Below are positions 9,692-46,521 of a stretch of 64,000 nt of DNA, one piece after another; position 1 is the stretch's first letter; every line of letters starts with the position of its first letter. The notes under the pieces are model-generated. The model was not told the DNA's origin. It worked only from the letters and a program-made list of their open reading frames with translations, and did not search any database. This stretch comes from a virus. The translations under genes were made by a program, and so were the position numbers. The DNA lies in IMG/VR virus record IMGVR_UViG_3300038441_001651, positions 1 through 64,000 of that record; one strand, given 5' to 3'.

Positions 9692-12600
9692 TTACAGCAT
9701 CTTGATTGCCGGCAGCTCTTTGAGGGAGCCGATGAAACCAAGTGCACCATCTTGCATCGGGTTATTGCCGATCTTATTCAGCCAGTTCGAATCCATGACG
9801 GATTGCAGGCCGGAGAAGAAGTTGTCCGCAACACCGAGCATCAAACCGCGTGCTGGGTGTTCCCGTACCAGACGCATGATGACTTTCTGGATTCGGAGGT
9901 AGTACTTGGTGAACATCACTAGACCCATGTCGTTCAGGTACTGCAAAGTACGGTGCGACGGCAGGTCATAGTTCACGAAGCTTTCTTCCGCCAGTTTCAG
10001 TGCATCAGCGTGGCTCAGAGGGTCTTTTACCCGGGTAGTCGCATGCTGGTACAGCGCATAGCGAGCAACCAGGTCAGACAGCTGAGTTGTCTGACTCAGG
10101 AACTTGTACGTGGCGGTGTCGTGGGTCATGTAGACCTGCTTGCCGACAGTACGCACCCAAGCCGGTACCTGCGAGGTGAACCGGTCGAGCTTACGCTCGA
10201 ACTGTGCCTTGTAGGTGTAACGGTCGTCATCAACCTCCACATCTTCCACGATGGTTGGCATCAAGCCAGCATCGATCAGCGGTTTGATCGGGTTACGCGC
10301 CAAACGATCCCGCAATTCCACCAATTCTTGCTCAGCCGGTGCACGGTCAGGGAAGTAGCCTATATCCAGCGCTTGTTGCAGCTGCATCGCACGCTTCGAG
10401 TCTTTGCGGTAATCCAGTGCGCCCTTGATAGCCACAGCATGGTACTGAGCTGCATCGCGCAGAGGAACACCTTCCCATGCCAGCAAAGTCATGTTCGACA
10501 TGATGTTGCCTGCCAGTGTCAGCACGTTCTTGATCACGAGGATGTCTTTCATCTCTTTGACCAAGGCCTGCATGATGTCTTCAGCTTGCCCGACCCGCAG
10601 TGCGGCTTTCGCGCCGAACATTGCTTCAGTGATACCGGTCAGCACCTTTTCCATCAGGTTGCGGTCAGCTGGCAGCACCTGGAAGGCGTTGGTCAGGCTG
10701 AATTTGCGATAGCCCAGGATCAGGTCCAGTTGGTCGGCCGGCACGTACATCGCGTCGTCTTTCCACACTTTCTTGATCTCGCGCTTGGTGCTTTCCGGCA
10801 ACAGGCGATACATCTCAGCAATCTGCGAATCAGCCGAGTCGGCAGACACACGCAGGTAAGAAGCTGGACGTTTGGTGTAGTCAGCCTTGTACTGATCGTA
10901 CAGGGAGCGCACCACGTCAGCGTTCTGGTTTGCCGAGCTGACTTTATCCACGATCTGTCCGGCCAGGACTCCCATCACTTGATCCATCGAATTATCGCGG
11001 TCCAGCAGGACATCGCGGTTGTGTTCGATCATCAGGTGACGGTAGTCCGCAATTCGACCGTCAGGTGCCAGGGTGGGGGCCATGTGGCCACCAGTTGCCT
11101 TGCGTGGGTCGTAGTTCGCACCGCGGGTGAACAGTTCGTCGATTGCCTGGGCTTTCGCTTGGGCAATCTGCTGGCGCATGGCCACGGAAGTGGTCTGGGT
11201 GCCTTGCATCATGTTCAGCGCTTCAGTGACCGGGCTGGAACCTTTGGCTTGCATGCCGGTGAACGACAGGGCACCAGTCAGGATACCCATTTGGCCAGCA
11301 CCACGGCGGGTCATCAGAACACGGTTACCGCCCTTCAGCGCCTTCACGTTTGGGTCCATCTGCAGGCGGGATCCTACGGTGAACCCAGCACGCACATGGG
11401 CTTCTACGTCCTTGGCTTCCACCAGCAAGACTTCGATCTTGTTGTCGTGGATCTCGGGCACGTAGCCGCTCTGTTGTAGGGCCTCGGTACCGTTGAACAG
11501 GTCATCGGTCGATTTCTCTTGCAGGCCCTTGTGGAGCTTCAAAAGGAAGTCAATACCGTTGCCGTCGTCCTGGCGGTTCATCTCGGTGCGCAGAACCTGC
11601 TTGGCGTGGTTCACGTCGGTGTCCGCGCTGTACTCGATACCGTAGACCGCCATCAGCTGATCCAGCACTGGCACCAGGTCCGCAGCCACAGCATTGGCCT
11701 GACCAGCTTTCTTGGTACCGTACATGGCCGCAATGTTGCGGGTGGACAGCATCAGGTTGGCCGAGGTCGAACCGCCCACAACCTTATGGTACGCCAGGTC
11801 TTTGGTCTGGCTGATCATGTACTGGCTGAAACCAGTGAGTGCAGCAACCTGGTTCTCCAGCTCAGTACGGTACGCGGCCATTGCCGAGCGATCTTCCATC
11901 AGGTCGCGCAGACCGGCCACACCTTTGGCTGCAACGATTGCCTGGGCGTTGGTGCGCAGGAGGACCTTGGTCATGGCATCGCGCTGCGGTTGGGTCAGGT
12001 CCTGGCCACCATTGTTGAAGGCAGCGTTCACAGCCGACACGGTGTTCTCAATGACAGCCTTGCGCTCCTGCTCGATGGCTTTGGCGCCCTTGAACAGTTC
12101 GGTAGCCAAGTTGCGGGAGTCGTAGTTGCCGCGCCATTCGGTCAGCAGGCCCATGGCCAAACCATGGCGATTACGTAGCGAAGCATCTCGCACCTTGGTC
12201 ACATGGTCGAGCACGTCATCAAGGCGATCGCCGGCCAGGGTGGACAGGGCCACAGAGGCAGCGCGCGCACCCGGGATACGGGAGTTACGCAGCATCTTGG
12301 ACTGACCCAGGGCGTCCAGCTTCTCGCGCACAGTACCAGCACCGCCGGTGATGTAGGCTTCAGCTTGGTCCATCAGGCCTAGGCGACGGTCTGCAACACG
12401 AGCCTTGCGCTTGGCTTCGATATCTACCAGCTGCTCCACCAGAGTGCTCAGCGCTACGTTGCCGGCCATGCCCGGGGTCACATGCGTGGCCAGGGATGCA
12501 AGGCGGGTCATCAAGCGGCGGAACAGTTCAGTGAGGCGGCTGGCCCACGGCAGCGACTTCAGCTCAACCTCTTGGTTTGCAGTCGAGAAACCAAGGACAT

Positions 12601-15600
12601 GACGGACTTCGGCCGAGGCCAAGCCCAGCGCAGCAAAGCGAGCCAGGTGGTTCGACTTGCCAGCAACCGGGGCAGCCGGGCGGAAGATCAGGTCGTACTT
12701 GGCCTGGGCGATGTCTTTCTCTGCCTGGGTAGCGGTGCTCCACTCGCCTTGCAGGAAGTTGGCCGGTTTCAGGGTAGCTTTCGCCTCCTTGTACAGGTTC
12801 TCCAGGCCTTGGCGAATGAACACAGTTTCCTTGGCGTTCAGCGCATGGGTGACGGTCGCTTCAACCGATTCCAGTACGAAAGCTTCCTGCTGCGACAGGA
12901 TGAACTGGCTGGCTACGGCATCCGAGCTGAATGGCAGTTTCCCGGTGGCCGAAGCCTTCAGGAACACATCCATTGGGGTAATTGCACGGTTGGCCGAGGC
13001 CTGCTCTTTGAATGCGCCGTACGGACCGTAGATAGGCTCGGTCACCGAGGTCAGCAGGTCTTTCAGGTAGGCAACGTGTGCACCGGAAGCTTTGGTGCCC
13101 GGGAGGTTACCCAGCTCTTCGAATACCTGCTCGGCGGTCATGGCGTTGACGTGATCGACGGCATCTTCGTACTTGTGGGTACGGGAAGCGCGGGCATCAC
13201 GCACAGCAGCCGCTTCTTGGAACAGGGCAGCCGAATTGGCAACCAGGTTGGCCAGGCCGTTGTTGTTCGCTGGTTTGTTGTCACCGAACAGCATGGTGGT
13301 CAACTTGCCGATGAACGACTTCAGGCCGTCCAAGAACGAGCGGTTACGCTGTTCTACTTGGATTTGAGCCAGCACATCGCGCTGGAACGCCTGGTTCGTG
13401 AGGCCCCAAGCCAGAAGCTCATGGACGTTCGAGGTAGCGTTGCGGAACTGGGCCGACAGTGCACCGTTGTTGCCGATGTGCTCAGCAGCCTTGGCACGGA
13501 TGGCTTCCAGGTCAGCAACAGCACGACCAATAGCAGTGTTCTTGCCTTCATGGGTATCCACCAGGTTGGCCAGGGCAGCGTGCACCAGTTCGTGGGTCAG
13601 CAGCTCCGGGGTGATCCCCGACTCTACGAACTCAGGCGATTTGATGAACAGTGCCGACGAACCGTTGCGCTGGGCGAACCAACCGCGGGACTTGTCCACA
13701 CCTTCACCGAATGCACCCTCAGGGCCGGTCTCGGCGGTAACGTAGGTCACAGGCATGTTGCTTGGGATGCCTTTGCGGGCCATCTTCAGCACAGTGCGCT
13801 GGAACGGATCCTGGACGTACTCAACCAGCGCGTCGATCAGGTTGTGCGCGGACAGTTTGTTCTGGCTCAGCAGCTGGACGAGGTTCACATCGGACTGCAC
13901 CACTGGTGCGCCGAGTTGGCCCCATACCGACACCTTGCCCACGGTGGCGGCACGAACAGCTTCAACCACTTCAGCAGCTTGGTTTTCCGGCAGGATTTGC
14001 ACGGCATCGGCCAAGGTACGGTTACCCGAAACCATGGAGTCAATGACCTGCTCAACCTGTGGAGTTTGCTCCACGGAAGCCAGGGTGTTCAGCGAAGTGC
14101 TCGGGGCCAGGGTGGTTACCGAGTTGTTCGACAGAACAGCAGACTGGCCAGGCTGATATACAGCCGGATCTACAGCAGCAGCCACATCCAGTTGCTCGGC
14201 GATAGCTTCAGCGGCAGGGTTGAAGGTCGAACCAACTTCCTTCAGCTTGGTGACGGCAGCAGCACGGTCTTCCGGGGTAACCACGTAGGAACCCAGGTCG
14301 GTAGCGTATTGGCCAACGGCCTGCATCTCAGCCAGGATTTCCAGCTTGTCGGTGTCAGCTTGACGCGCAGTCTCGCGGATGGCCACAACCTGGTCGTAAA
14401 CCGAGCCACGTTTACGCTTGGCACGCTCAATAGCCTTCTCGCGCAGCTTCGGTTGGATCCGGGCAGCGAGAGCAGGGTTTTGCATGACACGCGCAGCACC
14501 TTGCAGCACTTCGTCGAACATGGTCGCCATGGCGGTAGCCGACGAGTAGTTCAGCATGGTGTTATAGGTGGCTTTGTTCAGCTCCTGGCCAACCTTAGCC
14601 ACGTTGTTCAGATCCACGCCCAAGGCGTCGTGCACGTTCAGCGCTTCCATGGTTCCGTACACGGCAGACGCAATCGCCGAGTCGCTGGAGTGAATGGAGG
14701 TGATGAATGGCATTACACCCGGATCGATCTCGACAGTGCGGGTCGAGGACACGCGGGAGGAGCCGATACCGTTCATGGTGCCGTCTGGTGCAATGGTGTT
14801 CACCATGTCACCGAATGCGACTTCCTGCTCGAACGGCAGGGACGAATCCAGCTTGCGCTGAGTCTTGGCCATGTACATGCCAGCTTCACGCTGGCCGGCA
14901 GCTGAAGACATCGCAGTCTGTAGGATTGGCGCCATGTCACCCAGGATTGCATCAACCTCAGCCTGTTGGCCTTTGGTCAGGGTACGGATGGCGTTGCCGG
15001 CAGTGTTGCGAGCTACTTCACCGCTGTTGGCTTCGACATGCTCAATCACGCCGTCCCGGACAGCGTTGAAGATCTCGAAAGACATCTGCGCGGTCTGGTT
15101 GATCACGTTGCGGCGAGCAATGAAGGTGGCGTAGGTATCGCCCAGCGCAGCCTCGGTTGGCTGGCCCAGCAGCTCGTAGAACGACTTCTTCAAGGCATTC
15201 TTCTGCACATCGCTCAGCTTGGTTTCAAGTGCACGCTCGTAGCCCATTTGGGTGTCCAGGGCGAGCTTCTTGTTGACCAGCAGCACGTTGACCGCAGTCA
15301 GCAGCTTCTTGGTGGCTTCATTGTCGCGGGCAGCAGCTGCACGCTCAATGCTGTCGTAGGTGGCGTCGATGAAGGCGTCAGCCATACCTTGCACAGCAGT
15401 AGTCGGGTTCGAACCAAACATCAGTGCAGTCAGCGGCTTCTTGATGATGTTCCGGCCTTTGGAGGTCACGGTGTTGTCATCGTTCTTCAGCTGACCGGTG
15501 ATGACCTGCATTGCGTCCAGCATGTTGGTGTTACGACCAACCAGGTTGTTCAGGGCACCGGCAATCGACGACTCGTACAGGTCCAGGTTTCCCATGGCCT

Positions 15601-18600
15601 TGTAGTCGTTGAACTGCACCAGTTGCTCGCCATCCTTGTTCAGCTGACCGAGTTGGAAGAATCCACCTTGGTTCAGGGTGTCATAGCCTTTGGCGCCCAG
15701 CATCAGCAGGGAAAGCATCGGACCGTTGGTCACACCGTCCACTTCACCCATCATTGCGGTGGTGAACGAGGGTTTGCCGTCTTGCTCGGCGATGCGTTGC
15801 TCTGCTAGGGAAACCAGTGCATCAAACGAGTGGAAGTTCTCGCCGGCGGCCTTTACAGCAGCGACGATGGCTTCTTCGTTGGTTGGCGTATCGCTGTCAC
15901 GCAGAACGTCGACCAGTGCGTTGATACCGTCCTGGATAACCGGGGCGGAGATCATTGCATCGTAGCCAGCCAAAACCACGGAGGTAGTGTTGGCTTCGGT
16001 CTTCTTGCCGAACGCCTCCATCACGCGCAGCTTGAAATTGTCCATGCTGGCTTTATCGGCCAGGACAACATCAGCATTCCAGCCAGCCATAGCCAACATG
16101 TGGCGATGGATCTTGGAAGTCTGCGGGTTCACGACGTTGGCGGTCAGACCTACACGCTGAGGTTTCCATACCGAGCGACCGAAGAACAATTCCTGCTCCA
16201 GGCCGTTGGTCGATGGGTCACTGGCCATGGTGTTCACGAAAGCGTCGAAGTTGTCGATCTGTTGGATCAGACCGTCGTTCTTCGCTTCACGGGAAGCCAG
16301 GTTCTCAACGTGAGTTGGGGTATCAGTGGTCGAAACCACACCGCCCATGGCGTACAGCGCCTGTTTGGACAAACGGCCCCACACATGCCACATGTTCTGA
16401 CGAACGACGTGTGCTTTGGCGCCTTCTTTGTCCAGAATCTCCACCAGCCCTTTCGGGATGGCTTGACCAGTACGCTTGGCGAATTGTTGGTTGAATTTGA
16501 CCGGGGTGTAGCTCGGCTCAACACCTTTGGTTTCCACGGACATCAACCGGGCCAGCACAGACTGGGAACCAGTGGAACGCTCGCGGATACGCTTGACGAT
16601 GGGCGCAGGTTCACGCTTACCGTTCACTTCCTGCGAAACCACGCTGTAGAAGGTGTGGGTTACCCGCGGGTTACCTTTTTCACCCGAATTCATCAGCGCT
16701 TGCAGGGTTGTGTCAGCAAGTTGCTTACGCTCCAAGATACCCAGCTCAACCATGGCAGCAAGTGCCCGGGCGCCGACAGAAGCTTCCAGTTTGGACAGCT
16801 CAGCGTTGGTGCCTTGTTGGTTTGGGCGAAGACCCAGGGCTTGGGCAATACGTCCGCCCAGCTGCGATGCCAGCACCGATTCGCGGGTGCCAATCAGAGA
16901 CAAAGTCTGGTACGCAGCAGGCGAGACTTCATCGTCGAGGTCTTTCAACAGGATAGCGTTGATTGCCTCGTCGGAGTTACGCAGTTGGGTTGCGTTTTCA
17001 TTGGCCCACGAGAAGATGCCGAAACTCACGGCAGTTGCCAGGTTCTCGTCGATTTGCCCATCCGCATTTTGGAGGAACTGTGCCATGTCCCGATAGAAAA
17101 AGTCCGGGCGTTTGGCGCGAGTAGCAGTCACTCGGAATTGCTTGCGAACCGCCTGCGCAGAGTATTGCGCGAAGTTGAAGAAGGCGTTCAGGGCGGCCGT
17201 TTGAGGGCCGGACAGTGGATCTTTCTGGTCAAGGAAGTCCTGGACTGTTGCTTCGCCAGCTTTGATGGCGGAAGCAAAGTCTTTGACAGCTACGAGAGGA
17301 CGCAGGCTGGCGTCGGTGTCGTTACCCGATTCCTGGCTGAACAGCTCGGAAACCAAGTTGACGGAGGTGTAGTTGTCGGCAGTCACTGCCACACCAGTTT
17401 GCTCGCCGATTGCGGTGAGCTTGCCCGCGGCACGATCCGTGGCGCTGTCAGCTTGCTCAACCTGGGCCGGGGCCTCTTCTGGTACGACCGCAGCTTCTTG
17501 GTCAGCGGCCGGCGCAGCAGTCTCTTCTACAGCAGGAGCTACCTGTGCAGATTCAACGGCTGGTTCAGCCACAGCTTCAGTTGCTGGGACAATGACTTCA
17601 CCCTGCTCGAAGTCACCCGATTGCACAACCGGGGCAGCAGCAGGAGTTGGAGCAGCGTTTACCAGAGCTTCGAATGCAGCAGCAGTCTTTGCCAGCACAT
17701 CCGCTTCAGCAGCTACACCGTCGCGCAGCCGGAAGGAACGGGCATCAACCACCAGACCACCACGGGCTTTAAGGGCTTGGCCCTTCAAATCCGTTGGACC
17801 CCATTCGCCTTGCTCATTCCGCACGATGTTGATCGACTTGTTGGTGCCCTTCACTTGCTCATAGGCAGTGGTGATAGCGTCCAACTTCGAGACACGACTG
17901 GCGGCGAATGCGCGAATGCCATCGACTTGCGAGCGGGCTGCGTCTTCGTTGCCATTGGCCAGGGCCATACGGATTGCATTGCGATACTGCGGGATACCCT
18001 TGAAACCATCGCCACCAGTGGCAATGTCGGAACGTACGCCGGTAAGGCCTTTCAGGGCGTTGGCTGCCACCTGTGCTTCGCTGAAGAGGCGCATGGCGGT
18101 ACGTTGGCCGACGGACAGGGCTTCGCTCTGTGCAAGAGCATCGGCAACCTGGGTGTCTACGGCTTCAGGATTGGTCATGGTCAGGGTCAGCAAGCGGTCA
18201 GCCGCTTGAACATCACCTGTCTGTGCTTCATTTGCCATGGCTTCAACAGCAGCCGGCTCAGGGCTGGTGTCTACGCGCAGGCGCTCACCTGCTTGTTGTA
18301 CGGCGTCCAGCTGCGACTGCAAACGAGCCAGCTCAGCTTCGTCAGCCTTGCGTTGCTCGGGGGTGTACGACGACACAGCCTCGTGGATTTCACGCATATC
18401 CGCAACTTCAGCTTGGTCAACGCCAGCGGCTTCCATTTGCGAGATCAGCTCACCAATTTGCGCAACGCGCTCAGGCGAGGTGTTATCCAGGCGTGCTTGC
18501 ACCGAAGACAAGTCAGCAGTCAGGTTTTGCTGGATTTCGTCAGCCTGGGCCAGGTTCGCAGCTACATCGGCACCTTCGTTCAACGACATCTGGTGCAGTG

Positions 18601-19864
18601 CTTCAACAGCGCGCACTGGATCATAAGTCGCGGACTCGGTGTCGGCGAGCGACGAAACATCGCCAGACTCAACAGCAGAGGTAAAGGCTTCTTCTACCGA
18701 GGCACGATTCTTGGCCCGGGCAGGTTCAGCACCGCCAAGTTCGGCGGACAGCTGGAAGTTACCGCCAACCAGTGCACCAATGGTGGCACCTTCGACAATT
18801 TCTTCCAGAGTTGGGTCACCCAGCTTGGCTCGCGCTTCAGCATAGGTTTGGTAGCCTTCAGTGATGCCTTCTTTGGCGGCAGCGCCACCAACAGCACCAG
18901 CGCGGCTCATTGCACCGCGAGCATTACCCGAACCTGCAGCACGCATGCTGCGTAGTACAGAGGCATCACCCACCAGTTCGGCAGCAGCTGCGGATGCAGC
19001 GAATGCACCCATTTCAGTACGCTGGCTTGCGTCGGGGATCTGACCGTCGTTGTTCAGGTAGTACTCTTGCAGGCCTTCGCGGTATAGGTCAGCACCGTAA
19101 CCGGCGTTGGTACCTACCAGCAAAGCAGGGTTTACAGCGGCAGCTGCCAGCTGTGGGATGTTCTCGACGGTGTACTCAGCAACCGCTTGTGGCGATTGCA
19201 GGCCGGTGGCCAGGGCATTACCTGCAGTTTTCAGGATGCCTTTGGCACCGGTCAGCAAACCATCAACGATCTCACCATCTTCCAGCTGATAGCGGGCATC
19301 ACGCAGTTGCGCAACACCATCAGCAGTTTCACGACGAATATCACGGCTCAGGGTATCCCGGGCAGTGTTGTCGACGATGCTGGAAATGTCGAAGAAGTCA
19401 GCCACATCTTGGCCAACTTTCTGCAGACCTTGGGCACCTTGCAGGCGCTCCATGAAGGTTTGCGGGATACCGTCGTCACCGGGTGCTTGTTGCGCCAGGA
19501 GAGCCAGGTCATTTTCGTTTTCAGTGCCGGCCATCCAGCGGTTGTACGCCTGCACCTGCTCTTCCGGTACGGAAGCCAAGGCACCAGAGGAAATGGCGTC
19601 AATTGGCAGGGTTGCCAGGTTACCGGCCAGGCGGCTTGCGCCAGAAACCAAGGAAGCACCGAGGTTGGCCGCACGGCCAATGGTGTCGTCAGCGTCGTAG
19701 CCCATTTTTTCAATCAGCGCCTGCTTCTTCTGTTCAGAAGCTACAGCTACCTGGGCAGATTTCTGCTCGGTATCAAAAAGGGGGCGGAAGCCCCCAGTTT
19801 GTGCTGTAGGCAGGCCGGCTGGGAACAATTGGTCGAAACCGTAGTTCTCGTCACCGTTTGCCAT
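9692..19864 (-). CDS. Virion-encapsulated RNA polymerase (N4 gp50-like)
   Basis: Giant 3,390-residue protein, the hallmark of N4-like phages. It is packaged in the capsid, injected with the DNA and transcribes early genes from hairpin promoters on single-stranded or supercoiled template. T7-type catalytic motifs occur in order: motif A EVDGVTNGP with D1376; motif B R1471 and K1475, then F1483-G1484 (the same spacing as T7 R627, K631, Y639-G640); motif C NVHDALGV with H1745-D1746. About 1,100 N-terminal and 1,400 C-terminal residues flank the polymerase; the N-terminal part has coiled-coil and a Pro-Ala-Glu linker near 780-850. First gene of the virion block by position, likely last transcribed. 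Confidence 0.96.
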   Translation of the reverse strand: MANGDENYGFDQLFPAGLPTAQTGGFRPLFDTEQKSAQVAVASEQKKQALIEKMGYDADDTIGRAANLGASLVSGASRLAGNLATLPIDAISSGALASVPEEQVQAYNRWMAGTENENDLALLAQQAPGDDGIPQTFMERLQGAQGLQKVGQDVADFFDISSIVDNTARDTLSRDIRRETADGVAQLRDARYQLEDGEIVDGLLTGAKGILKTAGNALATGLQSPQAVAEYTVENIPQLAAAAVNPALLVGTNAGYGADLYREGLQEYYLNNDGQIPDASQRTEMGAFAASAAAAELVGDASVLRSMRAAGSGNARGAMSRAGAVGGAAAKEGITEGYQTYAEARAKLGDPTLEEIVEGATIGALVGGNFQLSAELGGAEPARAKNRASVEEAFTSAVESGDVSSLADTESATYDPVRAVEALHQMSLNEGADVAANLAQADEIQQNLTADLSSVQARLDNTSPERVAQIGELISQMEAAGVDQAEVADMREIHEAVSSYTPEQRKADEAELARLQSQLDAVQQAGERLRVDTSPEPAAVEAMANEAQTGDVQAADRLLTLTMTNPEAVDTQVADALAQSEALSVGQRTAMRLFSEAQVAANALKGLTGVRSDIATGGDGFKGIPQYRNAIRMALANGNEDAARSQVDGIRAFAASRVSKLDAITTAYEQVKGTNKSINIVRNEQGEWGPTDLKGQALKARGGLVVDARSFRLRDGVAAEADVLAKTAAAFEALVNAAPTPAAAPVVQSGDFEQGEVIVPATEAVAEPAVESAQVAPAVEETAAPAADQEAAVVPEEAPAQVEQADSATDRAAGKLTAIGEQTGVAVTADNYTSVNLVSELFSQESGNDTDASLRPLVAVKDFASAIKAGEATVQDFLDQKDPLSGPQTAALNAFFNFAQYSAQAVRKQFRVTATRAKRPDFFYRDMAQFLQNADGQIDENLATAVSFGIFSWANENATQLRNSDEAINAILLKDLDDEVSPAAYQTLSLIGTRESVLASQLGGRIAQALGLRPNQQGTNAELSKLEASVGARALAAMVELGILERKQLADTTLQALMNSGEKGNPRVTHTFYSVVSQEVNGKREPAPIVKRIRERSTGSQSVLARLMSVETKGVEPSYTPVKFNQQFAKRTGQAIPKGLVEILDKEGAKAHVVRQNMWHVWGRLSKQALYAMGGVVSTTDTPTHVENLASREAKNDGLIQQIDNFDAFVNTMASDPSTNGLEQELFFGRSVWKPQRVGLTANVVNPQTSKIHRHMLAMAGWNADVVLADKASMDNFKLRVMEAFGKKTEANTTSVVLAGYDAMISAPVIQDGINALVDVLRDSDTPTNEEAIVAAVKAAGENFHSFDALVSLAEQRIAEQDGKPSFTTAMMGEVDGVTNGPMLSLLMLGAKGYDTLNQGGFFQLGQLNKDGEQLVQFNDYKAMGNLDLYESSIAGALNNLVGRNTNMLDAMQVITGQLKNDDNTVTSKGRNIIKKPLTALMFGSNPTTAVQGMADAFIDATYDSIERAAAARDNEATKKLLTAVNVLLVNKKLALDTQMGYERALETKLSDVQKNALKKSFYELLGQPTEAALGDTYATFIARRNVINQTAQMSFEIFNAVRDGVIEHVEANSGEVARNTAGNAIRTLTKGQQAEVDAILGDMAPILQTAMSSAAGQREAGMYMAKTQRKLDSSLPFEQEVAFGDMVNTIAPDGTMNGIGSSRVSSTRTVEIDPGVMPFITSIHSSDSAIASAVYGTMEALNVHDALGVDLNNVAKVGQELNKATYNTMLNYSSATAMATMFDEVLQGAARVMQNPALAARIQPKLREKAIERAKRKRGSVYDQVVAIRETARQADTDKLEILAEMQAVGQYATDLGSYVVTPEDRAAAVTKLKEVGSTFNPAAEAIAEQLDVAAAVDPAVYQPGQSAVLSNNSVTTLAPSTSLNTLASVEQTPQVEQVIDSMVSGNRTLADAVQILPENQAAEVVEAVRAATVGKVSVWGQLGAPVVQSDVNLVQLLSQNKLSAHNLIDALVEYVQDPFQRTVLKMARKGIPSNMPVTYVTAETGPEGAFGEGVDKSRGWFAQRNGSSALFIKSPEFVESGITPELLTHELVHAALANLVDTHEGKNTAIGRAVADLEAIRAKAAEHIGNNGALSAQFRNATSNVHELLAWGLTNQAFQRDVLAQIQVEQRNRSFLDGLKSFIGKLTTMLFGDNKPANNNGLANLVANSAALFQEAAAVRDARASRTHKYEDAVDHVNAMTAEQVFEELGNLPGTKASGAHVAYLKDLLTSVTEPIYGPYGAFKEQASANRAITPMDVFLKASATGKLPFSSDAVASQFILSQQEAFVLESVEATVTHALNAKETVFIRQGLENLYKEAKATLKPANFLQGEWSTATQAEKDIAQAKYDLIFRPAAPVAGKSNHLARFAALGLASAEVRHVLGFSTANQEVELKSLPWASRLTELFRRLMTRLASLATHVTPGMAGNVALSTLVEQLVDIEAKRKARVADRRLGLMDQAEAYITGGAGTVREKLDALGQSKMLRNSRIPGARAASVALSTLAGDRLDDVLDHVTKVRDASLRNRHGLAMGLLTEWRGNYDSRNLATELFKGAKAIEQERKAVIENTVSAVNAAFNNGGQDLTQPQRDAMTKVLLRTNAQAIVAAKGVAGLRDLMEDRSAMAAYRTELENQVAALTGFSQYMISQTKDLAYHKVVGGSTSANLMLSTRNIAAMYGTKKAGQANAVAADLVPVLDQLMAVYGIEYSADTDVNHAKQVLRTEMNRQDDGNGIDFLLKLHKGLQEKSTDDLFNGTEALQQSGYVPEIHDNKIEVLLVEAKDVEAHVRAGFTVGSRLQMDPNVKALKGGNRVLMTRRGAGQMGILTGALSFTGMQAKGSSPVTEALNMMQGTQTTSVAMRQQIAQAKAQAIDELFTRGANYDPRKATGGHMAPTLAPDGRIADYRHLMIEHNRDVLLDRDNSMDQVMGVLAGQIVDKVSSANQNADVVRSLYDQYKADYTKRPASYLRVSADSADSQIAEMYRLLPESTKREIKKVWKDDAMYVPADQLDLILGYRKFSLTNAFQVLPADRNLMEKVLTGITEAMFGAKAALRVGQAEDIMQALVKEMKDILVIKNVLTLAGNIMSNMTLLAWEGVPLRDAAQYHAVAIKGALDYRKDSKRAMQLQQALDIGYFPDRAPAEQELVELRDRLARNPIKPLIDAGLMPTIVEDVEVDDDRYTYKAQFERKLDRFTSQVPAWVRTVGKQVYMTHDTATYKFLSQTTQLSDLVARYALYQHATTRVKDPLSHADALKLAEESFVNYDLPSHRTLQYLNDMGLVMFTKYYLRIQKVIMRLVREHPARGLMLGVADNFFSGLQSVMDSNWLNKIGNNPMQDGALGFIGSLKELPAIKML

Positions 19865-34838: not shown

Positions 34839-34988
34839 TATAAAATTTAGAACCCGCGGGATTTGGGGAAAAATTCTGTAGGGGTATGAACACAGTACTT
34901 ATGTATTCGTTCTTGGTTTCCGGGAGTACCCCCCCGGGGTCCTGTTCTCTTGAGTTTTCCTCAAAGACCCACCCCAGGTACCCTTACC

Positions 34989-35006
34989 GGGCCTTCGGCC
35001 CTGTAA
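34989..35006 (+). promoter_or_regulatory. Hairpin early promoter 1 (vRNAP type)
   Basis: GGGCC, loop TTC, GGCCC, then TGTAATG. The template strand therefore carries a 5-bp stem with loop GAA, matching N4 vRNAP promoters, where the central purine of a 3-nt loop is at -11. That rule puts +1 at about 35006. The surrounding 34777-35178 stretch otherwise holds no confident gene. Confidence 0.65.
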
Positions 35007-35110
35007 TGCATGCTTTAGCGGAGACCTCTTCAGTGATCATTGAAATGCTCTGTACTCTGGCTGTTGCTGTGTGGTTCGACGATACCGTGAGTGGTATCTG
35101 GAATCTGTAG
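35006..35110 (+). CDS. Possible leaderless micro-ORF, 34 aa
   Basis: An ORF reading MHALAETSSVIIEMLC... with a hydrophobic centre (CTLAVAVW) begins exactly at the transcription start predicted for hairpin promoter 1 and has no ribosome-binding site. It could be a leaderless message for a small membrane peptide or simply leader RNA. Nothing but location supports it. Confidence 0.25.
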   Translation: MHALAETSSVIIEMLCTLAVAVWFDDTVSGIWNL

Positions 35111-35121
35111 CCTTCGGCCTT

Positions 35122-35149
35122 GTGGTGGATACCTTCGGGTGTTCACCAC
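35122..35149 (+). terminator. UUCG-loop hairpin before first early gene
   Basis: Twelve-base-pair stem 35122-35133 with 35138-35149 (two G-U pairs) and TTCG loop, followed by TATTCTTTTCC. It may stop or slow transcription from promoter 1, or protect the 5' end of the downstream message. Confidence 0.55.
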
Positions 35150-35178
35150 TATTCTTTTCCTTAGCTAGGAGATACACC

Positions 35179-35475
35179 ATGTTCAAGCAAATCTTCGCAA
35201 TGATCGCCCAGTTCGCACTGATGCTGACCAACCTGTTCTCTGCAGGTACCAAGCTGAGCAACGCTGCTGTCCACTCCGCTTCCTGGGTGGAAGGTGCTGC
35301 TGAAGGCTTCAACGAGATCGCTACTCTCGAACGTAACGAGAAACTCGATGCTCTGCGTGGCAAGTACGACATCAACCAGCGCATCCGTGCTGCTGAACAA
35401 GCTCTGTCCGCTTCTGATCTGGAAGCCAAGCTCAAGCTGCTCAAGGCTGAAGCCAAGAACGAAGTAGCTGCGTAA
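35179..35475 (+). CDS. First early gene, helical protein of 98 aa
   Basis: Starts MFKQIFAMIAQFAL at ATG 35179 with AGGAG at 35167-35171. An amphipathic or weakly hydrophobic N-terminus (about 1-20) is followed by a highly helical, Ala/Glu/Lys-rich body (LDALRGKYDINQRIRAAEQAL). Such proteins are often abundant early phage products. The high-quality ribosome site and optimal codon use suggest strong expression. Function unknown. Confidence 0.75.
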   Translation: MFKQIFAMIAQFALMLTNLFSAGTKLSNAAVHSASWVEGAAEGFNEIATLERNEKLDALRGKYDINQRIRAAEQALSASDLEAKLKLLKAEAKNEVAA

Positions 35476-35521
35476 GTAATCCAACGGGGATCGAAAGGTC
35501 CCCAAACCAAGGTGAATAACC

Positions 35522-35608
35522 ATGGCCTTCGAATCATCACTCGCAATCCTGTGTTTCCTGTTAGCCACCACGCTGCTCGGTGCACTCTGGTACTCAACTC
35601 CTAAATAG
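35522..35608 (+). CDS. 28-aa single-span membrane protein
   Basis: Tiny protein MAFESSLAILCFLLATTLLGAL... with one hydrophobic span of about 18 residues and a short polar end. AAGGTG lies eleven bases upstream. It follows the 98-aa gene and is followed directly by a terminator, completing a two-gene early unit. A similar 28-residue membrane protein lies at 38528. Confidence 0.6.
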   Translation: MAFESSLAILCFLLATTLLGALWYSTPK

Positions 35609-35610
35609 GG

Positions 35611-35631
35611 GCTGGGTACCAGCTCTTTTTT
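35611..35631 (+). terminator. Intrinsic terminator, GTA loop
   Basis: GCTGG, loop GTA, CCAGC, then TCTTTTTT. It closes the first early transcription unit. Confidence 0.75.
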
Positions 35632-35790
35632 AAGAGCACACACGAAGCACACATCAAAAGCACACAATCCTTCCCCTTTAGACAGTAGGTGAGGAAGATC
35701 CCTTTCTTCCCTTCCCCTTTCAGTCAGATTCCCCTACATGTGAGGGAGAGTGAGGGAGATTGGAGGTGAAACAGTGTGTTTGCAGTGAGT

Positions 35791-35819
35791 TTGACCTGCA
35801 ATTGTCCCTTTCCTACATC
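35791..35819 (+). promoter_or_regulatory. Possible sigma-70 promoter
   Basis: TTGACC and TACATC separated by 17 bases in the pyrimidine-rich 35609-35904 gap, which otherwise holds only repeats of CTTCCCCTT. It may allow host polymerase to add early transcription. Weak -10. Confidence 0.3.
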
Positions 35820-35866
35820 CTATCAACCTTCCCCTTCATTCCGATACCTAACGGTAGACTATCGTT

Positions 35867-35883
35867 CACCTTCGGTGCTGTAA
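35867..35883 (+). promoter_or_regulatory. Hairpin early promoter 2 (vRNAP type)
   Basis: CACC, loop TTC, GGTG, then CTGTAATAG. Template loop GAA as in promoter 1, and TGTAA follows closely. The predicted +1 is near 35883, giving a 22-nt leader with GGAGG before the first array gene at 35905. Confidence 0.65.
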
Positions 35884-35904
35884 TAGACAACCTTGGAGGT
35901 ATTT

Positions 35905-36132
35905 ATGGACTATCTGCTGTTACCTAACGGAACTGTGCTGGCACTGAAAGCATTGGACAGTGTTCCTTCTGTTATAAGGCGTGCCAATGAACAACGTGCT
36001 ATATGTACCTATTGGTACGTCGCAGAGAATGATCAATGGTGTTGTGCCTTCAATGAAGCGCGTGGAGGCATTGCAATTGATCGCTCCTGTGTACCTGATG
36101 TTGTATTGCTTGCACATACGATGGTGACTTAA
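35905..36132 (+). CDS. VPE-family early protein 1, 75 aa
   Basis: First of eighteen diverged relatives. N-terminal strand pair MDYLLLPNGTVLALKAL, centre TYWYVAENDQWCC with paired tryptophans, and end SCVPDVVLLAHTMVT carrying the family signature. GGAGG at 35895-35899 sets ATG 35905. The gene is promoter-proximal to hairpin 2. No known domain is recognised; the small beta-plus-helix layout suggests a protein-binding factor acting early on the host. Confidence 0.75.
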   Translation: MDYLLLPNGTVLALKALDSVPSVIRRANEQRAICTYWYVAENDQWCCAFNEARGGIAIDRSCVPDVVLLAHTMVT

Positions 36133-36375
36133 ATGGAATACATGCTGCTGGCTGATGGTACGGTGAAGTCTTTCCCGTGCCTATCTACAGGCACTCAGAT
36201 CCTTGAAGCTTTGAAAGCCCATAACGGAGTTAGCCATTACTGGTGGGACGGTGTTTACGAGAACACTTGGCGGGTGTGGCATATAACCCACCAAATTGGT
36301 GCCCGTAATGGTGGTTTCCCTGTAAAAGAAGAAGATGTCCCTGAAGTTATCAAACTTGCTCGAGTGCTGGAGTAA
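36133..36375 (+). CDS. VPE-family early protein 2, 80 aa
   Basis: Begins directly after the previous stop (TAAATG). Shows YMLLADGTVKSF near the N-terminus, HYWWDG and NTWRVWH in the centre, and EDVPEVIKLARVLE at the C-terminus. Close in pattern to proteins 1, 3 and 4, which form one contiguous block. Without its own ribosome site, it probably depends on re-initiation after gene 1. Function unknown. Confidence 0.75.
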   Translation: MEYMLLADGTVKSFPCLSTGTQILEALKAHNGVSHYWWDGVYENTWRVWHITHQIGARNGGFPVKEEDVPEVIKLARVLE

Positions 36376-36377
36376 CT

Positions 36378-36623
36378 ATGGCTGACTATTTGTACTTTGC
36401 TGATGGCACTGCCGAAGCTGTTGAAGAACTCGATATGCGAGCCCTGCGTGAGCGTATGCATATGCGTAGTGCTGAAGCCACTTACTGGGTGTTTGCGAAT
36501 GATGAGACCCAGAAGGCTGGTTGGGTCATGTGTACTATGCGTATGGCCACCAACCGCAGCATAACAGAAGATGAAGTGCCTGAATCTGTACGCATGCTGC
36601 ACTTAATTGCAGGAGGCTGCTGA
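36378..36623 (+). CDS. VPE-family early protein 3, 81 aa
   Basis: YLYFADGTAEAVEEL at the start matches the family DGxV strand pair; TYWVFANDE then GWVM supply the central Trp pair; DEVPESVRMLHLIAGG is the signature, here with Leu replacing the usual Ala. GGAG-type spacing is poor, so coupling from the upstream gene (two-base gap) is likely. No function assignable. Confidence 0.72.
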   Translation: MADYLYFADGTAEAVEELDMRALRERMHMRSAEATYWVFANDETQKAGWVMCTMRMATNRSITEDEVPESVRMLHLIAGGC

Positions 36624-36884
36624 ATGGAAGCTGAGTACCTGCTGAAAGCCAATGGCGAAGTCCTTGTCATAGCGGCCTCTGCGAACTGGGAGCAGCTACA
36701 GATGCTGCTCACCCTCACAGGTGCCCATTCGTATTGGTTCCCGCGGTGGAATGATGAAGATGAGCCAGATAGCCTATATCGGGACTCGTGGGGCATGTTC
36801 CTGCCTGGGGACGATAGTTATGCCATCGTAAAAACCCCGCAAGTACCTGAAGTTATACGCCTAGCCCATCTAATGGTGGGCTGA
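36624..36884 (+). CDS. VPE-family early protein 4, 86 aa
   Basis: EYLLKANGEVLVI, central HSYWFPRW and SWGMF, acidic loop NDEDEPD, and PQVPEVIRLAHLMVG at the end. AGGAG is present inside the end of the previous gene. It closes the first array block; its stop codon lies inside the stem of hairpin promoter 3, so transcription signals overlap the coding end. Confidence 0.75.
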   Translation: MEAEYLLKANGEVLVIAASANWEQLQMLLTLTGAHSYWFPRWNDEDEPDSLYRDSWGMFLPGDDSYAIVKTPQVPEVIRLAHLMVG

Positions 36885-36899
36885 CCTTCGGTCATGTGA
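36882..36899 (+). promoter_or_regulatory. Hairpin early promoter 3 (vRNAP type)
   Basis: TGACC, loop TTC, GGTCA, then TGTGACG. Five-pair stem, template loop GAA, predicted +1 near 36899. It would drive the 36931 gene, which has its own AGGAG. Confidence 0.6.
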
Positions 36900-36930
36900 C
36901 GAAAGTTAAACCAAATAAACAGGAGTTCAA

Positions 36931-37230
36931 ATGTTCTTTGAAGCTATCTTCACCATCTGCATGACCGACCCTGCGACTGAAGTTACTACTTGTCGCATCA
37001 TGGTCACTGAAATGACTCAGCTCGCCAGTTCTAACACTCAATGTGTGCAAAAAGCTGAGATGTTGTCCAAGAGTGTGGGCGCTGCTGCACGTAAGCAGTT
37101 CCCACAACTGAAGTTCAGCGGTGAGGCTGTGTACTGTGGCAGTACCGCTACTTACACCGAAAGTATCACCAAACTAGTCAAGTCGGGCTATGAAATGTCC
37201 GGCTTCAAGTATGTACAGGAGCGGTTCTGA
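36931..37230 (+). CDS. Hypothetical early protein, 99 aa
   Basis: Unrecognised. MFFEAIFTICMTDPA... is beta-like, with several Thr and Cys residues, then a helix QLASSNTQCVQKAEML and a C-terminal region GSTATYTESITKLVKSGYEM resembling the small single-domain phage proteins that end in a short Lys/Tyr helix. AGGAG at 36921-36925 supports ATG 36931. Its stop overlaps the next start by one base. Confidence 0.68.
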   Translation: MFFEAIFTICMTDPATEVTTCRIMVTEMTQLASSNTQCVQKAEMLSKSVGAAARKQFPQLKFSGEAVYCGSTATYTESITKLVKSGYEMSGFKYVQERF

Positions 37231-37499
37231 TGAAACCAAGTGAAATGATCCAAGCTGCTATCGACAGTGGTATCTACAAAAGCAGTCTTTACATGTGCAA
37301 CGCTGTAAAGAATTTGCCGGGCGCGCGGTACCTAGATGTATGTGATTGTCAAATGGCCATCACTAAACGCATTTATCCGTTTGCTACGCTGCCTGCGTAC
37401 ATCGCACATCGTGATGGCATGAAGGGATACCCAAACTACCAACAGCGTGTGGAGTTTTGGCTGGAGTTCATCGAAGAACTGAAAAAGCAAAACCGATAA
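37230..37499 (+). CDS. Hypothetical early protein, 89 aa
   Basis: Unrecognised 89-residue protein. MKPSEMIQAAIDSGIYKSS looks like a helical N-terminus; a cluster CNAVKNLPGARYLDVCDCQM holds three Cys; the C-terminus is helical (VEFWLEFIEELKKQNR). ATG 37230 shares a base with the previous stop, preceded by AGGAG. Composition suggests a soluble regulatory or inhibitory protein, but that is only a guess. Confidence 0.68.
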   Translation: MKPSEMIQAAIDSGIYKSSLYMCNAVKNLPGARYLDVCDCQMAITKRIYPFATLPAYIAHRDGMKGYPNYQQRVEFWLEFIEELKKQNR

Positions 37500-37578
37500 T
37501 CTAAAAATGCAAATTTGACGATTTCGGCGAGAAAAACGATAAACCAAAGGGATAGATTCCCGCAGTTGAGGTATAGCA

Positions 37579-37779
37579 ATGCCGTTCCCACTCTATGCAA
37601 TCCTCGTTGCCCTTTCCGTTGTGGCCTGTATCGAAATATGCGTTAGCTTTCTCGAATGGGTCCAAGAAAACTGGTATGGCCCACACCCGAACACAAAACC
37701 GTATCAGTGGAAGCGCATGTGCATCATTGCGCTGGTGCTGATCACTACCATGCTGTTGTTCAAGTGGGGTCAGCCATGA
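37579..37779 (+). CDS. Two-span membrane protein, 66 aa
   Basis: MPFPLYAILVALSVVACIEICVSF forms one hydrophobic segment near the N-terminus; MCIIALVLITTMLLFKWG forms another at the C-terminus; a polar loop of about 20 residues lies between. GAGGTA precedes ATG 37579. Its end overlaps the next start as ATGA. It could be an early inner-membrane protein; no specific family is recognised. Confidence 0.65.
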   Translation: MPFPLYAILVALSVVACIEICVSFLEWVQENWYGPHPNTKPYQWKRMCIIALVLITTMLLFKWGQP

Positions 37780-38078
37780 TCAAGCTGCATGAGGTGCCGC
37801 CGGATATCTACGCAGAGCACCTTGCCCACCAGAAGTCCCAGGTTGCCCGGGCATTGCGGCTGTATGTGCGCACGAAGGGCTTCACCTACAGGCATGGCGC
37901 CTACCTCGTAGGCTGCAGCTATAACGCCTTCGGCCATGTCATGCGTGGTGAGGAGTGGAGGGTATCCTTCGACCTCATCTTCCGTATGGCTACCGTGTTC
38001 GGTATCAAAATCCACATTGGGGTGTCTCTGCCCCAGAACGATGTAACCTGTAAGACCGCTGGCCCTTCGGGCCTGTAA
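37776..38078 (+). CDS. XRE-like helix-turn-helix protein, 100 aa
   Basis: The region YRHGAYLVGCSYNAFGHVM followed by RVSFDLIFRMATVFGIKI (about residues 37-75) looks like the four-helix XRE DNA-binding fold, suggesting an early transcription regulator. The N-terminus is helical and basic. ATG 37776 overlaps the preceding stop. The last 18 bases coincide with hairpin promoter 4, so the protein end is constrained by the promoter. Confidence 0.6.
   Translation: MIKLHEVPPDIYAEHLAHQKSQVARALRLYVRTKGFTYRHGAYLVGCSYNAFGHVMRGEEWRVSFDLIFRMATVFGIKIHIGVSLPQNDVTCKTAGPSGL
38061..38078 (+). promoter_or_regulatory. Hairpin early promoter 4 (vRNAP type)
   Basis: GGCCC, loop TTC, GGGCC, then TGTAAAGG. Same stem size, loop and downstream TGTAA as promoters 1 and 2. 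Predicted +1 near 38078. It would transcribe 38134 onward. Confidence 0.65.
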
Positions 38079-38133
38079 AGGCATACGTCTGCCACAAAAT
38101 CCCTTTCTGATCCAATATTCTGGAGTATTTCCC

Positions 38134-38475
38134 ATGGCCGTTACCCGTAACCAAGATCGCAACAACGCCCCTGCTGCCCGTACTGAGCGTGAGCCAAGCC
38201 AAGCCAAGAAGACCCTAGGCTTCTTCAACATCAACATCCCTACCGTCGGCGGTACACCGATCCGCGTCGATGCTGTACGCCTGATGGAAGGCACCAAGGT
38301 GCATGAGCAGCTGGCTGCATACCTCGGCTGCACTCGCCCCGGCGACGAGAAGTTGCAAGGTGAAGAGCTGGTGGCCGAGAAGGCCAAGCGTCTGGCTGAA
38401 GTGGTCTCCAAGCTGGAGTTCAGCTTCAACCCAACCCGTACCGAAGAAGAGTCCCTGCTGGCTCTCGGCGTCTGA
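38134..38475 (+). CDS. Hypothetical early protein, 113 aa
   Basis: Unrecognised. A disordered basic start (MAVTRNQDRNNAPAARTERE) is followed by a beta-like segment (FFNINIPTVGGTPIRVDAVRL) and a helical C-terminal half (ELVAEKAKRLAEVVSKLEF). GGAG upstream and GC-rich optimal codons suggest high expression. It forms a unit of its own between hairpin promoter 4 and the strong hairpin at 38483. Confidence 0.72.
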   Translation: MAVTRNQDRNNAPAARTEREPSQAKKTLGFFNINIPTVGGTPIRVDAVRLMEGTKVHEQLAAYLGCTRPGDEKLQGEELVAEKAKRLAEVVSKLEFSFNPTRTEEESLLALGV

Positions 38476-38482
38476 CCTACCT

Positions 38483-38506
38483 GGCCACTACCTTCGGGTG
38501 GTGGCC
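38483..38506 (+). terminator. UUCG-loop terminator-like hairpin
   Basis: Ten-pair stem 38483-38492 with 38497-38506 (one G-U) around TTCG, followed by TACCTTTTGG. Likely attenuates transcription after the 113-aa gene. Confidence 0.65.
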
Positions 38507-43316: not shown

Positions 43317-44246
43317 GTGAAAGCTACCCTTATGCTCACCGACGACATGCAAAAGGCAAACGAGTACCGCTTTGCCCGCCATCATGTCGATAAGTACATG
43401 CGTGATTACGTCTTGAATGACGTTGAAGTTATCCCGCTGCTGGATAAGGGTGTTGAGATACTCACTGAGTGGGTAAATACCGAATTCAGCTACGAAAGCA
43501 AGAACATCCGCGTATCCGCCCTTAAAGGCATGGATCTGCGTGAACTGGTCACCGAAGTAGTGGTGGCCTCGGCCTATTGCCAGCATGAAGAGCTGTTCAC
43601 CAGCTTCACTGCACGCATGGCCGGTATACTGGGCTGGGACGACAAGAAGTCGAGCATCACCACAGTGGCTGAGATCACTGCGGTGCTGTGCGATACTGAC
43701 CTGTTCGACCTGACCCAAGCAAACCGCTTCAGCTCTTGGAACATTCTCAGCAACATCACCTTGTCGCTGGAACTGCAGGAATACATAGCAAACTGTGCCT
43801 ACCTGCCCCCACTGGTGCATAAACCAAGTAAGCTGAGGCACAACCGCGATACTCCGTATCTGACCATCGGGCAAGACTCGGTGATCCTCAACAAGGGTCA
43901 CCACAACGACGACGTGTGTCTTGATGTGCTGGATTCCAAGAATGCTGTGGCTTTGTCGCTGGATTTGGAATTCCTCAGCACTGTCGAGGAAGAGCCCAAC
44001 AGCGAGCTGGATTCCCCAGAGAAACAGAACATGTGGTTGCGTATGAAGAAGCAATCGCATGAGTTCTACCTGCTGATGGCGAAGCAAGGCAACAAGTTCT
44101 ACCTGCACCACAAATATGACAAGCGTGGACGTATCTACGCTCAGGGCTACCACATTTCTACCCAAGGGGCTCCCTACAAGAAGGCGATGATTGAATTCGC
44201 CAATAAGGAAGCTGTAACTGATATCCCGCAGGAGTTCCAACTATGA
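43317..44246 (+). CDS. RNA polymerase II subunit 1 (N4 gp15-like)
   Basis: One half of the heterodimeric T7-like polymerase that transcribes middle genes in N4-like phages; 309 residues, starting at GTG 43317 after AAAAGGAG. It carries the region that precedes the catalytic motifs in T7 RNA polymerase, including YDKRGRIYAQG (D268, R270-R272), the DxxGR motif that contacts the template-RNA hybrid. Motifs A, B and C are absent here and present in the second subunit. In N4 the two subunit genes are adjacent; here five small ORFs lie between them. Confidence 0.92.
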   Translation: MKATLMLTDDMQKANEYRFARHHVDKYMRDYVLNDVEVIPLLDKGVEILTEWVNTEFSYESKNIRVSALKGMDLRELVTEVVVASAYCQHEELFTSFTARMAGILGWDDKKSSITTVAEITAVLCDTDLFDLTQANRFSSWNILSNITLSLELQEYIANCAYLPPLVHKPSKLRHNRDTPYLTIGQDSVILNKGHHNDDVCLDVLDSKNAVALSLDLEFLSTVEEEPNSELDSPEKQNMWLRMKKQSHEFYLLMAKQGNKFYLHHKYDKRGRIYAQGYHISTQGAPYKKAMIEFANKEAVTDIPQEFQL

Positions 44247-45267: not shown

Positions 45268-46521
45268 ATGAAATTCTATACCCCGTTCCAGTGGCTGTGT
45301 GTTGATATCGCAAACCAAGGCTATGATGACAAGAAACTGTTCGAAGAACGTGTTGAGTGGGTGAAGGAGAACTTCGCCCGCTTGCCGTACCTGAACACCA
45401 GCAAGAAAGAACGTCCGCTGTACCTGAAGGCTGTCAATGCCCTGTACCGTGCTTGCCGCGGTCAACAGATCGGTCACATGGTTGGCTTGGATGCAACGTG
45501 CTCGGGCATGTCCATCATGTCCGTGGTCACCAAGTGCTTCAAGGGCTGCCTGGCCACCAACCTGATCGACCCTGACAAGCGCAATGACGCCTACACCATG
45601 GTCACGGACGCTGCCAGCAGAATGCTGGAAGGCGACCTGATCATTGACCGTAATGACGCTAAGCAGGCCACCATGACCACGCTGTACGGCTCGCAGAAGA
45701 CTCCCCGGGAGATCTTCGGTACCGATACCGAGGAACTGGACGCCTTCTATGCTGGCTTGGTCGAGGTTGCCCCGCTGGCGGTAGAGTTGCTGGGTGACCT
45801 GCGTAACGCCTGGCAACCCTATGCGCTGGAACACCGCTGGGTGTGCCCAGACAACTTCAACGTCCGTATCAAGGTGATGCAGAAGGTTGAGGGTGAGCGT
45901 GTCGAGGTTGACGAGCTGGACGGTGCCACGTTCACCTATGACTATTACATCAATGAGGGTTCCAAGTCTGACCTGAAGCTGGTGGCCAACGTTACCCATT
46001 CGCTGGACGCCTACCTGCTCCGCTCCATGGAGCGTCGCTGTAACTACAACAAATCAGCTGTGACCAAGGCCCTGTGCCTGTTGCTGGATGAATACAAGCA
46101 CCGTAAATCTGGCTTCCACGTTGAGTGGCACCTCGGCGAAGCAGTCAATCTTGCGCAACAACTCATTGCTGTTTGGGGGGGTTGCGAGATGCCAGATGCA
46201 CGGCTGTTTGACGTGTTGAATGAACGCGATGTGCGCTTCATGGACGATAGGCATATCGCGCAGATGATTGCCTTGGCTGATCAACTGCTGGAACGCGAAC
46301 CGTTCGAGATCGTCACCGTTCACGATGAGTTCAAGTGCCACCCGAACAACTGCAACTGGATGCGCCTTACCTATGCACAGATCATGGCCGATTTGGCCCG
46401 TGCTCGCGTGCTGGAGGACATCTACGAGCAGATTACCGGTATGACCCCAACCTATGAGAAGAGCATGGACGGCGATGAGCTGGCTGCGCTGATTCTGGAG
46501 AGTAATTATGCGCTGTCGTAA
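45268..46521 (+). CDS. RNA polymerase II subunit 2 (N4 gp16-like)
   Basis: Catalytic half of the heterodimeric middle-gene polymerase, 417 residues. T7-type motif A is GLDATCSG (D75); motif B has R128, K132, M136-T137 and Y140-G141, the full RxxxKxxxMTxxYG pattern; motif C is TVHDEFKCH (H352-D353). Together with subunit 1 it makes a complete T7-like polymerase. AAAGGTGAG precedes the ATG. A strong terminator follows at 46666. Confidence 0.94.
   Translation: MKFYTPFQWLCVDIANQGYDDKKLFEERVEWVKENFARLPYLNTSKKERPLYLKAVNALYRACRGQQIGHMVGLDATCSGMSIMSVVTKCFKGCLATNLIDPDKRNDAYTMVTDAASRMLEGDLIIDRNDAKQATMTTLYGSQKTPREIFGTDTEELDAFYAGLVEVAPLAVELLGDLRNAWQPYALEHRWVCPDNFNVRIKVMQKVEGERVEVDELDGATFTYDYYINEGSKSDLKLVANVTHSLDAYLLRSMERRCNYNKSAVTKALCLLLDEYKHRKSGFHVEWHLGEAVNLAQQLIAVWGGCEMPDARLFDVLNERDVRFMDDRHIAQMIALADQLLEREPFEIVTVHDEFKCHPNNCNWMRLTYAQIMADLARARVLEDIYEQITGMTPTYEKSMDGDELAALILESNYALS

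Follow-up and report, generated by a model that had tools for sequence, protein, structure and literature searches.

Probable hairpin promoters of the virion RNA polymerase in the early region of a schitovirus and their departures from the N4 consensus

Introduction

The classic example of a polymerase reading a hairpin of single-stranded DNA is the virion RNA polymerase (vRNAP) of bacteriophage N4, to which the experimental data in the literature that we found are confined. Its promoters P1, P2 and P3 are located upstream of early genes and form hairpins in the template strand, which have a stem of at least 5 bp, a three-nucleotide G-R-A loop closed by a C-G pair, and a T at position -4 (PMC4496689; PMC12633501). 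The template loop of P1 is GAA (oligonucleotide in PMC12633501). The enzyme, which is giant and free of cysteine, specifically reads the template bases -11A/G, -10G, -8G and +1C, and its residue R904 contacts -8G (PMC4496689). Here, we describe a series of short hairpins in the early region of 64 kb (the window) of the 72,851-base virus record IMGVR_UViG_3300038441_001651. In the anatomy and location of the hairpins, in the GAA loop and in the possession of a giant Cys-free vRNAP, the window phage resembles N4. Four of the hairpins (sites A, C, D and E), together with the weaker site B, are very probably the early vRNAP promoters of this schitovirus.

Similar elements have been predicted in other phages. 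For LIT1, LUZ7 and PEV2, three hairpin promoters per phage were proposed, which precede genes 1, 12 and 13 (Ceyssens 2010, PMC3715699), and three vRNAP hairpins with 3-nt loops were predicted in the early region of the Pectobacterium phages CB1, CB3 and CB4 (PMC6027278). Because these predictions are published, the window phage adds another example to a kind already known. LIT1, LUZ7 and PEV2 share with it CC-TTC-GG hairpins (stems of 4-5 bp), TG at -4/-3 and GG at +3/+4; the first sites and the site ahead of a gene annotated 'toxin' are syntenic as well. LIT1 and LUZ7 differ in that TTC and TAC loops are mixed. In the phages Possum and Kc283, which are related to CB1, CB3 and CB4, the loops are mostly ATA (template TAT) and not GNA. 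Ahead of LIT1 gene 2, we additionally observed a CACC-TTC-GGTG hairpin with TGGAGTGG (L009:803), which is beyond the list of Ceyssens 2010.

Hairpin sites in the early region

The initial annotation of the window had placed four TTC hairpins with stems of 4-5 bp at 34989, 35867, 36882 and 38061, each followed at equal distance by TGTAA or TGTGA and each ahead of one or several early genes. All of this was confirmed to the base, and the four hairpins are perfect and located on the plus strand. Site A (34989-35009) consists of GGGCC-TTC-GGCCC (34989-35001) and the initiator TGTAATGC; with the spacing of N4, its +1 is 35006, and the alternative is 35008. Site C (35867-35886) consists of CACC-TTC-GGTG (35867-35877) and TGTAATAG (35879-35886) and has its N4-like +1 at 35883. 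Site D (36882-36902) comprises TGACC-TTC-GGTCA (36882-36894) and TGTGACGA, with +1 at 36899 or alternatively 36901, and overlaps the stop codon of an open reading frame (ORF) at 36624-36884. Site E (38061-38081), which overlaps the end of the preceding ORF, comprises GGCCC-TTC-GGGCC (38061-38073) and TGTAAAGG, with +1 at 38078 or alternatively 38080. The next gene begins at 35179 after site A, at 35905 after C, at 36931 after D and at 38134 after E. Site A is located upstream of the gene 35179-35475, site C upstream of four small ORFs, site D upstream of the ORFs 36931 and 37230, and site E upstream of the gene 38134-38475. The template loop is GAA at all sites, and the hairpin is centred at -11 with a 3-nt loop and a C-G closing pair on the template. 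Counted with the loop centre as -11, the bases from -4 to +1 are TGTAA at A, C and E and TGTGA at D, which are the same positions as in N4.

The four listed sites are real; a fifth one, site B, had been overlooked, and the promoter sites probably number five instead of four. Site B (35110-35128) consists of GCC-TTC-GGC (35110-35118), followed by an A.C mismatch, and TGTGGTGG; its N4-like +1 is 35125 and its register is that of the other sites. In LIT1, the first hairpin is homologous to it. The site is intact in LIT1 and in relatives, several of which have a stem of 4-5 bp, and is degraded to 3 bp in the window phage. A further candidate, CCTTCGGCCATGT at 37927-37939, forms a 3-bp hairpin in promoter register inside an ORF and was excluded as a probable chance occurrence.

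Chance expectation, conservation and covariation of the stems

The expected number of sites was determined by means of dinucleotide-preserving shuffles; the target was a hairpin of at least 4 bp containing C-TTC-G and followed by TGT (-4 to -2). On the plus strand of the whole window, 4 sites were observed, compared to a mean of 0.02 and a maximum of 1 in 300 shuffles. The same scan of the minus strand of the whole window yielded no such site. For the early region alone, the 4 observed sites compare to a mean of 0.002 and a maximum of 1 in 2000 shuffles. All four fall within a 3.1-kb stretch ahead of early genes. Sigma-70-like sites are rare in the early region (6 versus 13.1 in shuffles). As a positive control, the scan of N4 recovered the proven promoters P1, P2 and P3; in the first 7 kb of N4, no further C-G closed TTC or TCC hairpin was detected by the same scan.

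For comparison, eight virus contigs of near relatives, phCDa among them, were used. Site E was found in all eight, and its stems vary yet remain paired: GGCCC/GGGCC in the window phage becomes GGGCC/GGCCC in L061 and GGACC/GGTCC in L065. In several of the eight relatives, sites A and C were found again. Homologues of site A are present in L062, L064 and phCDa, and a related site with a TAC loop in Littlefix; homologues of site C are those of L079 (2200) and LIT1 (803). In an alignment of 29 distinct sites, 87.6% of the cells are paired compared to 67.3% after shuffling, and both sides have changed in 28 cells compared to 9.1. The covariation score of 0.499 (shuffled, 0.129) was reached in none of 500 shuffles, and slid controls stayed at or below 0.175; the sites came from a scan for a C-G closed core, although B and E are recognisable by their flanks too, and the fair test is therefore mainly that of the outer pairs. 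Such compensated stem changes are what a hairpin requires.

The interpretation of the hairpins as vRNAP promoters, which had also been put forward in the initial annotation, is supported by these compensatory stems, by the recovery of P1-P3, by the synteny with LIT1, LUZ7 and Littlefix, and by the fold of the vRNAP described below. Moreover, triloops precede several early genes on the same strand, and loop and initiator are common to the sites within the genome, as in hairpin promoters of Schitoviridae in the wide sense.

Alternative functions of the hairpins

It is very unlikely, though less so than the other alternatives, that the hairpins function in RNA as leader hairpins, processing sites, attenuators or terminators, and not as promoters in the template DNA. 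They are intergenic and would be transcribed by read-through, the folding energies of the RNA range from -2.3 to -9.3 kcal/mol, and downstream of site B lies a distinct RNA hairpin (12 bp, 35122-35149) with a T-rich tail. However, sites A, C, D and E lack a T-rich tract on their downstream side and are also absent from the list of terminators; an assignment as intrinsic terminators was therefore rejected. A UUCG tetraloop was rejected as well, because it is incompatible with the register of the stem and because homologous sites have TAC. Further points against a role in RNA are that conserved bases extend past the loop at constant distance, and that the outer loop letters are fixed (T..C in the coding strand, G..A in the template), the middle base depending on the lineage. 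The fixed G..A of the template agrees with the N4 DNA hairpin, in which a sheared G:A pair is formed (PMC4496689), and corresponds to no known stable RNA triloop.

Short inverted repeats ahead of several genes could also serve a DNA-binding protein, such as a dimeric repressor, as operators, which we consider even less probable. An operator would keep the letters of its arms, whereas the arms found here differ between sites and between relatives with compensation. In addition, the conservation beyond the hairpin is one-sided (TGNNRNGG downstream), and N4 sites of the same anatomy are proven promoters. A chance or repeat-derived likeness of four GC-rich hairpins can practically be dismissed: CCTTCGG does occur 16 times in the window (both strands), and some of these hairpins are UUCG-type terminators (38483-38506), but the shuffles yield only 0.02 sites, relatives have homologues of A, B, C and E, and the stems covary.

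The virion RNA polymerase and a proposed mechanism

The polymerase that would read these promoters is encoded at 9692-19864 of the minus strand. It comprises 3390 residues without a single cysteine and was identified by a sequence match to N4 gp50 (PDB) and by a fold match; the polymerase core corresponds to approximately residues 820-1900. A profile-profile comparison of the vRNAP core of the window clade with the N4-side vRNAPs gave an E-value of 9e-59 over 942 columns, and the catalytic residues D559 and D951 as well as R424 are conserved in this alignment. An AlphaFold2 model of the core, computed with a 59-row alignment, reached a predicted local distance difference test score (pLDDT) of 89.9 and a predicted TM-score (pTM) of 0.87; it was used instead of the model computed without alignment (pLDDT 36.6). 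The top PDB matches of the model are N4 vRNAP entries, including the complexes with promoters P1 and P2 (Foldseek TM 0.70-0.74). Structure comparison yielded Z-scores of 23-26 over 930-958 residues, both for the mini-vRNAP entries and for the best full-length state.

In the region of the promoter-reading residues the alignment is weak; there, in mini-vRNAP numbering, K114 corresponds to R916 or a gap, R119 to a gap, W129 to the aromatic Y924/F923, D901 to G1701, and R904 to R1704. R904 thus has an arginine counterpart, although the base at template position -8 is a C at the window sites.

Modelled on N4 (PMC4496689), the mechanism might be as follows. The injected vRNAP would come in with the first DNA. 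Host gyrase would supercoil the entering DNA, and the short inverted repeats would extrude. The template hairpin would then consist of the C-G closing pair and a compact G-A-A loop with a sheared G:A pair. The vRNAP would bind this hairpin, begin the RNA at a fixed distance downstream, and transcribe the early genes. Supercoil-driven extrusion, binding mode and timing are all inferred by analogy.

Initiator, start position and departures from the N4 consensus

Among the bases read by the N4 enzyme, template -11A and -10G are the same at the window sites. Template -8 is C in the window phage and G in N4; template +1 is T at four of the five sites and C in N4. The spacer is TGTR instead of TTTT or TTAT, and there are four or five sites instead of three. 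The window phage is thus a variant in which two positions of the N4 consensus, -8G and +1C, are not kept. A further difference concerns a conserved GG, which is located at +1/+2 in N4 and at +3/+4 in the group of the window phage. Among 35 sites of this Pseudomonas-type group, T at -4 was found in 97%, G at -3 in 91%, a purine at +1 in 97%, G at +3 in 83% and G at +4 in 89% (template CC at +3/+4). In contrast, 57 N4-type sites have G at +1 in 84% and at +2 in 86%. The TGTRA of the initial annotation is present at its four sites but is not fixed across the group, whose pattern is T-G-N-N-R-N-G-G.

The start positions 35006, 35883, 36899 and 38078 proposed there follow from N4 spacing. Given the conserved GG at +3/+4, a start 2 nt further downstream is plausible, and transcription may begin near 35008, 35885-35886, 36901 and 38080 instead. 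Initiation is likely to occur either at the N4-numbered +1, where a purine start is possible, or at +3, the first G of the conserved GG. An ONT-cappable-seq study of LUZ7 reportedly bears on the start sites.

Several of these observations weigh against the assignment of the hairpins as vRNAP promoters. Template -8 is C at every window site, the template base at +1 agrees with N4 at site B only and is T at the other four, and within the window GG at +3/+4 is restricted to sites B and E. The hairpin of site B is poor, and a homologue of site D was sought in the eight relatives and not seen. On the side of the enzyme, none of the residues that recognise -11 (K114, R119, W129) is retained as such and D901 is replaced by G, in the weakly aligned region.

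Loop triplets across Schitoviridae

The statement that the central loop base at -11 is a purine holds for the window sites, whose template loop has a 5' G, a 3' A and a purine at -11 (GAA); it fails in close relatives. At the position of site E, Littlefix, 98PfluR60PP and L067 contain GGGGC-TAC-GCCCC-TGTAAAGG, and LIT1 and LUZ7 contain CAGGC-TAC-GCCTG-TGTAATGG. A TAC loop in the coding strand corresponds to GTA in the template, that is, to a pyrimidine at -11. Littlefix has TAC loops at four sites; LIT1 and LUZ7 have TTC and TAC.

In the early regions of about 105 schitoviruses, C-G closed loops near gene starts show a marked strand asymmetry: TCC occurs 60 times and GGA twice, TTC 31 times and GAA twice, TGC 20 times and GCA 4 times, TAC 14 times and GTA 6 times. 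Some lineages have the loops ATA, ACA, TCT or CTT; we observed shared loops of these four types, outside the GNA template rule, in the early hairpins of L132, L139, L116 and L160-L162. In Erwinia phage Ea9-2, Rhizobium phage RHph_N38 and Pseudomonas phage ZC03, a clear family of early hairpins was sought and not found. Within a genome, loops are identical in 80% of site pairs compared to 21% after permutation (maximum 37%). Each phage tends toward one triplet, which varies by lineage, and the tree of the N4-side vRNAPs contains at least eight loop changes.

Most phages with TCC loops retain R119 and W129; those with TGC, TTC, TAC, TCT, CTT or ACA loops have mostly lost them. Correction for the tree leaves 3-4 independent pairs, and with so few contrasts, the sign test for an association of loop and vRNAP residues is not significant; a coevolution of the loop with R119 and W129 is suggestive only. 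With these data, we slightly favour the idea that schitoviruses have repeatedly recoded the way in which the vRNAP reads its hairpin. The C-G closed triloop would be kept, and the loop letters (coding-strand TCC, TTC, TGC, TAC, TCT, CTT, ATA or ACA), the -8 pair and the spacing to the initiating GG (+1/+2 or +3/+4) would vary between lineages, with the -11 recognition element and the specificity loop of the enzyme changing in step. As part of this idea, and with the same slight preference, the window phage would represent one dialect, CC-TTC-GG followed by TGTARNGG. A description of family-wide changes of loop and initiator was not found in the literature searched, which was a limited library.

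Genomic context and side observations

Its gene content assigns the source phage to the Schitoviridae (N4-like phages). The window contains RNAP1 (43317-44246, plus strand; phrog_2166, E-value 4e-108) and RNAP2 (45268-46521, plus strand; phrog_2051, E-value 1e-139), the two subunits of the N4-like middle RNA polymerase, together with an N4-type single-stranded DNA-binding protein (SSB), DNA polymerase, primase, terminase and the giant Cys-free vRNAP. Among the named phages of the collection, the closest relative is Pseudomonas phage phCDa, which belongs to the genus Shizishanvirus (Schitoviridae) and has 81% identity in RNAP2. A separate record, the 41-kb contig L201 (IMGVR_UViG_3300028592_000040), encodes a vRNAP core 100% identical to that of the window; by this measure, an identical or near-identical phage has been sampled twice. 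The physical genome end is probably located within 34900-35870, the record being circularly permuted, by analogy with LIT1, whose terminal repeat contains the first promoter and gene 1.

The first early gene (35179-35475, plus strand, 98 residues), downstream of sites A and B, has no Pfam match; for the early genes in general, the Pfam search gave no match and PHROG matches are few. The gene after site E (38134-38475, plus strand) matches PHROG 6271, annotated 'toxin', and in LIT1 and LUZ7 a gene annotated 'toxin' likewise follows the hairpin homologous to site E. Four tandem ORFs at 35905-36884 encode proteins of 75-86 residues with similar N-termini (Y-L/M-L/Y ... NG/DG) and are probably diverged paralogues within one early operon. 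A tRNA was the sole match of an Rfam search.

Two other groups of hairpins were noticed. At the predicted start of site B, positions 35122-35149 form the 12-bp RNA hairpin GTGGTGGATACC-TTCG-GGTGTTCACCAC with a T-rich tail, and a similar leader occurs in relatives and in LIT1 (GTGGATTGATCCTGTGTCACCAC); it is a candidate for a 5' stabilising hairpin or an attenuator ahead of early gene 1. Hairpins of 6-7 bp with a TCC loop (loop centres 4154, 4932, 46649 and 48457) are located just past stop codons, as they are after RNAP2 and later genes of LIT1, LUZ7 and phCDa. They look like terminators, and their template loop is C(GGA)G, as in N4 P2 and P3.

Implications

For the annotation of N4-like phages, a 'central purine' is an unsafe search rule; it is better to look upstream of early genes for C-G closed triloops that share their letters with one another in the same genome. 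The window phage combines promoters that break the -8G and +1C rules of N4 with a vRNAP whose sequence is known and whose fold is predicted with confidence, which makes the specificity of this enzyme class testable by swaps of hairpins and cores, and it is a possible source of orthogonal single-strand promoters. If schitoviruses have indeed repeatedly recoded the reading of their hairpins, the family would hold a natural set of mutually orthogonal pairs of hairpin promoter and polymerase.

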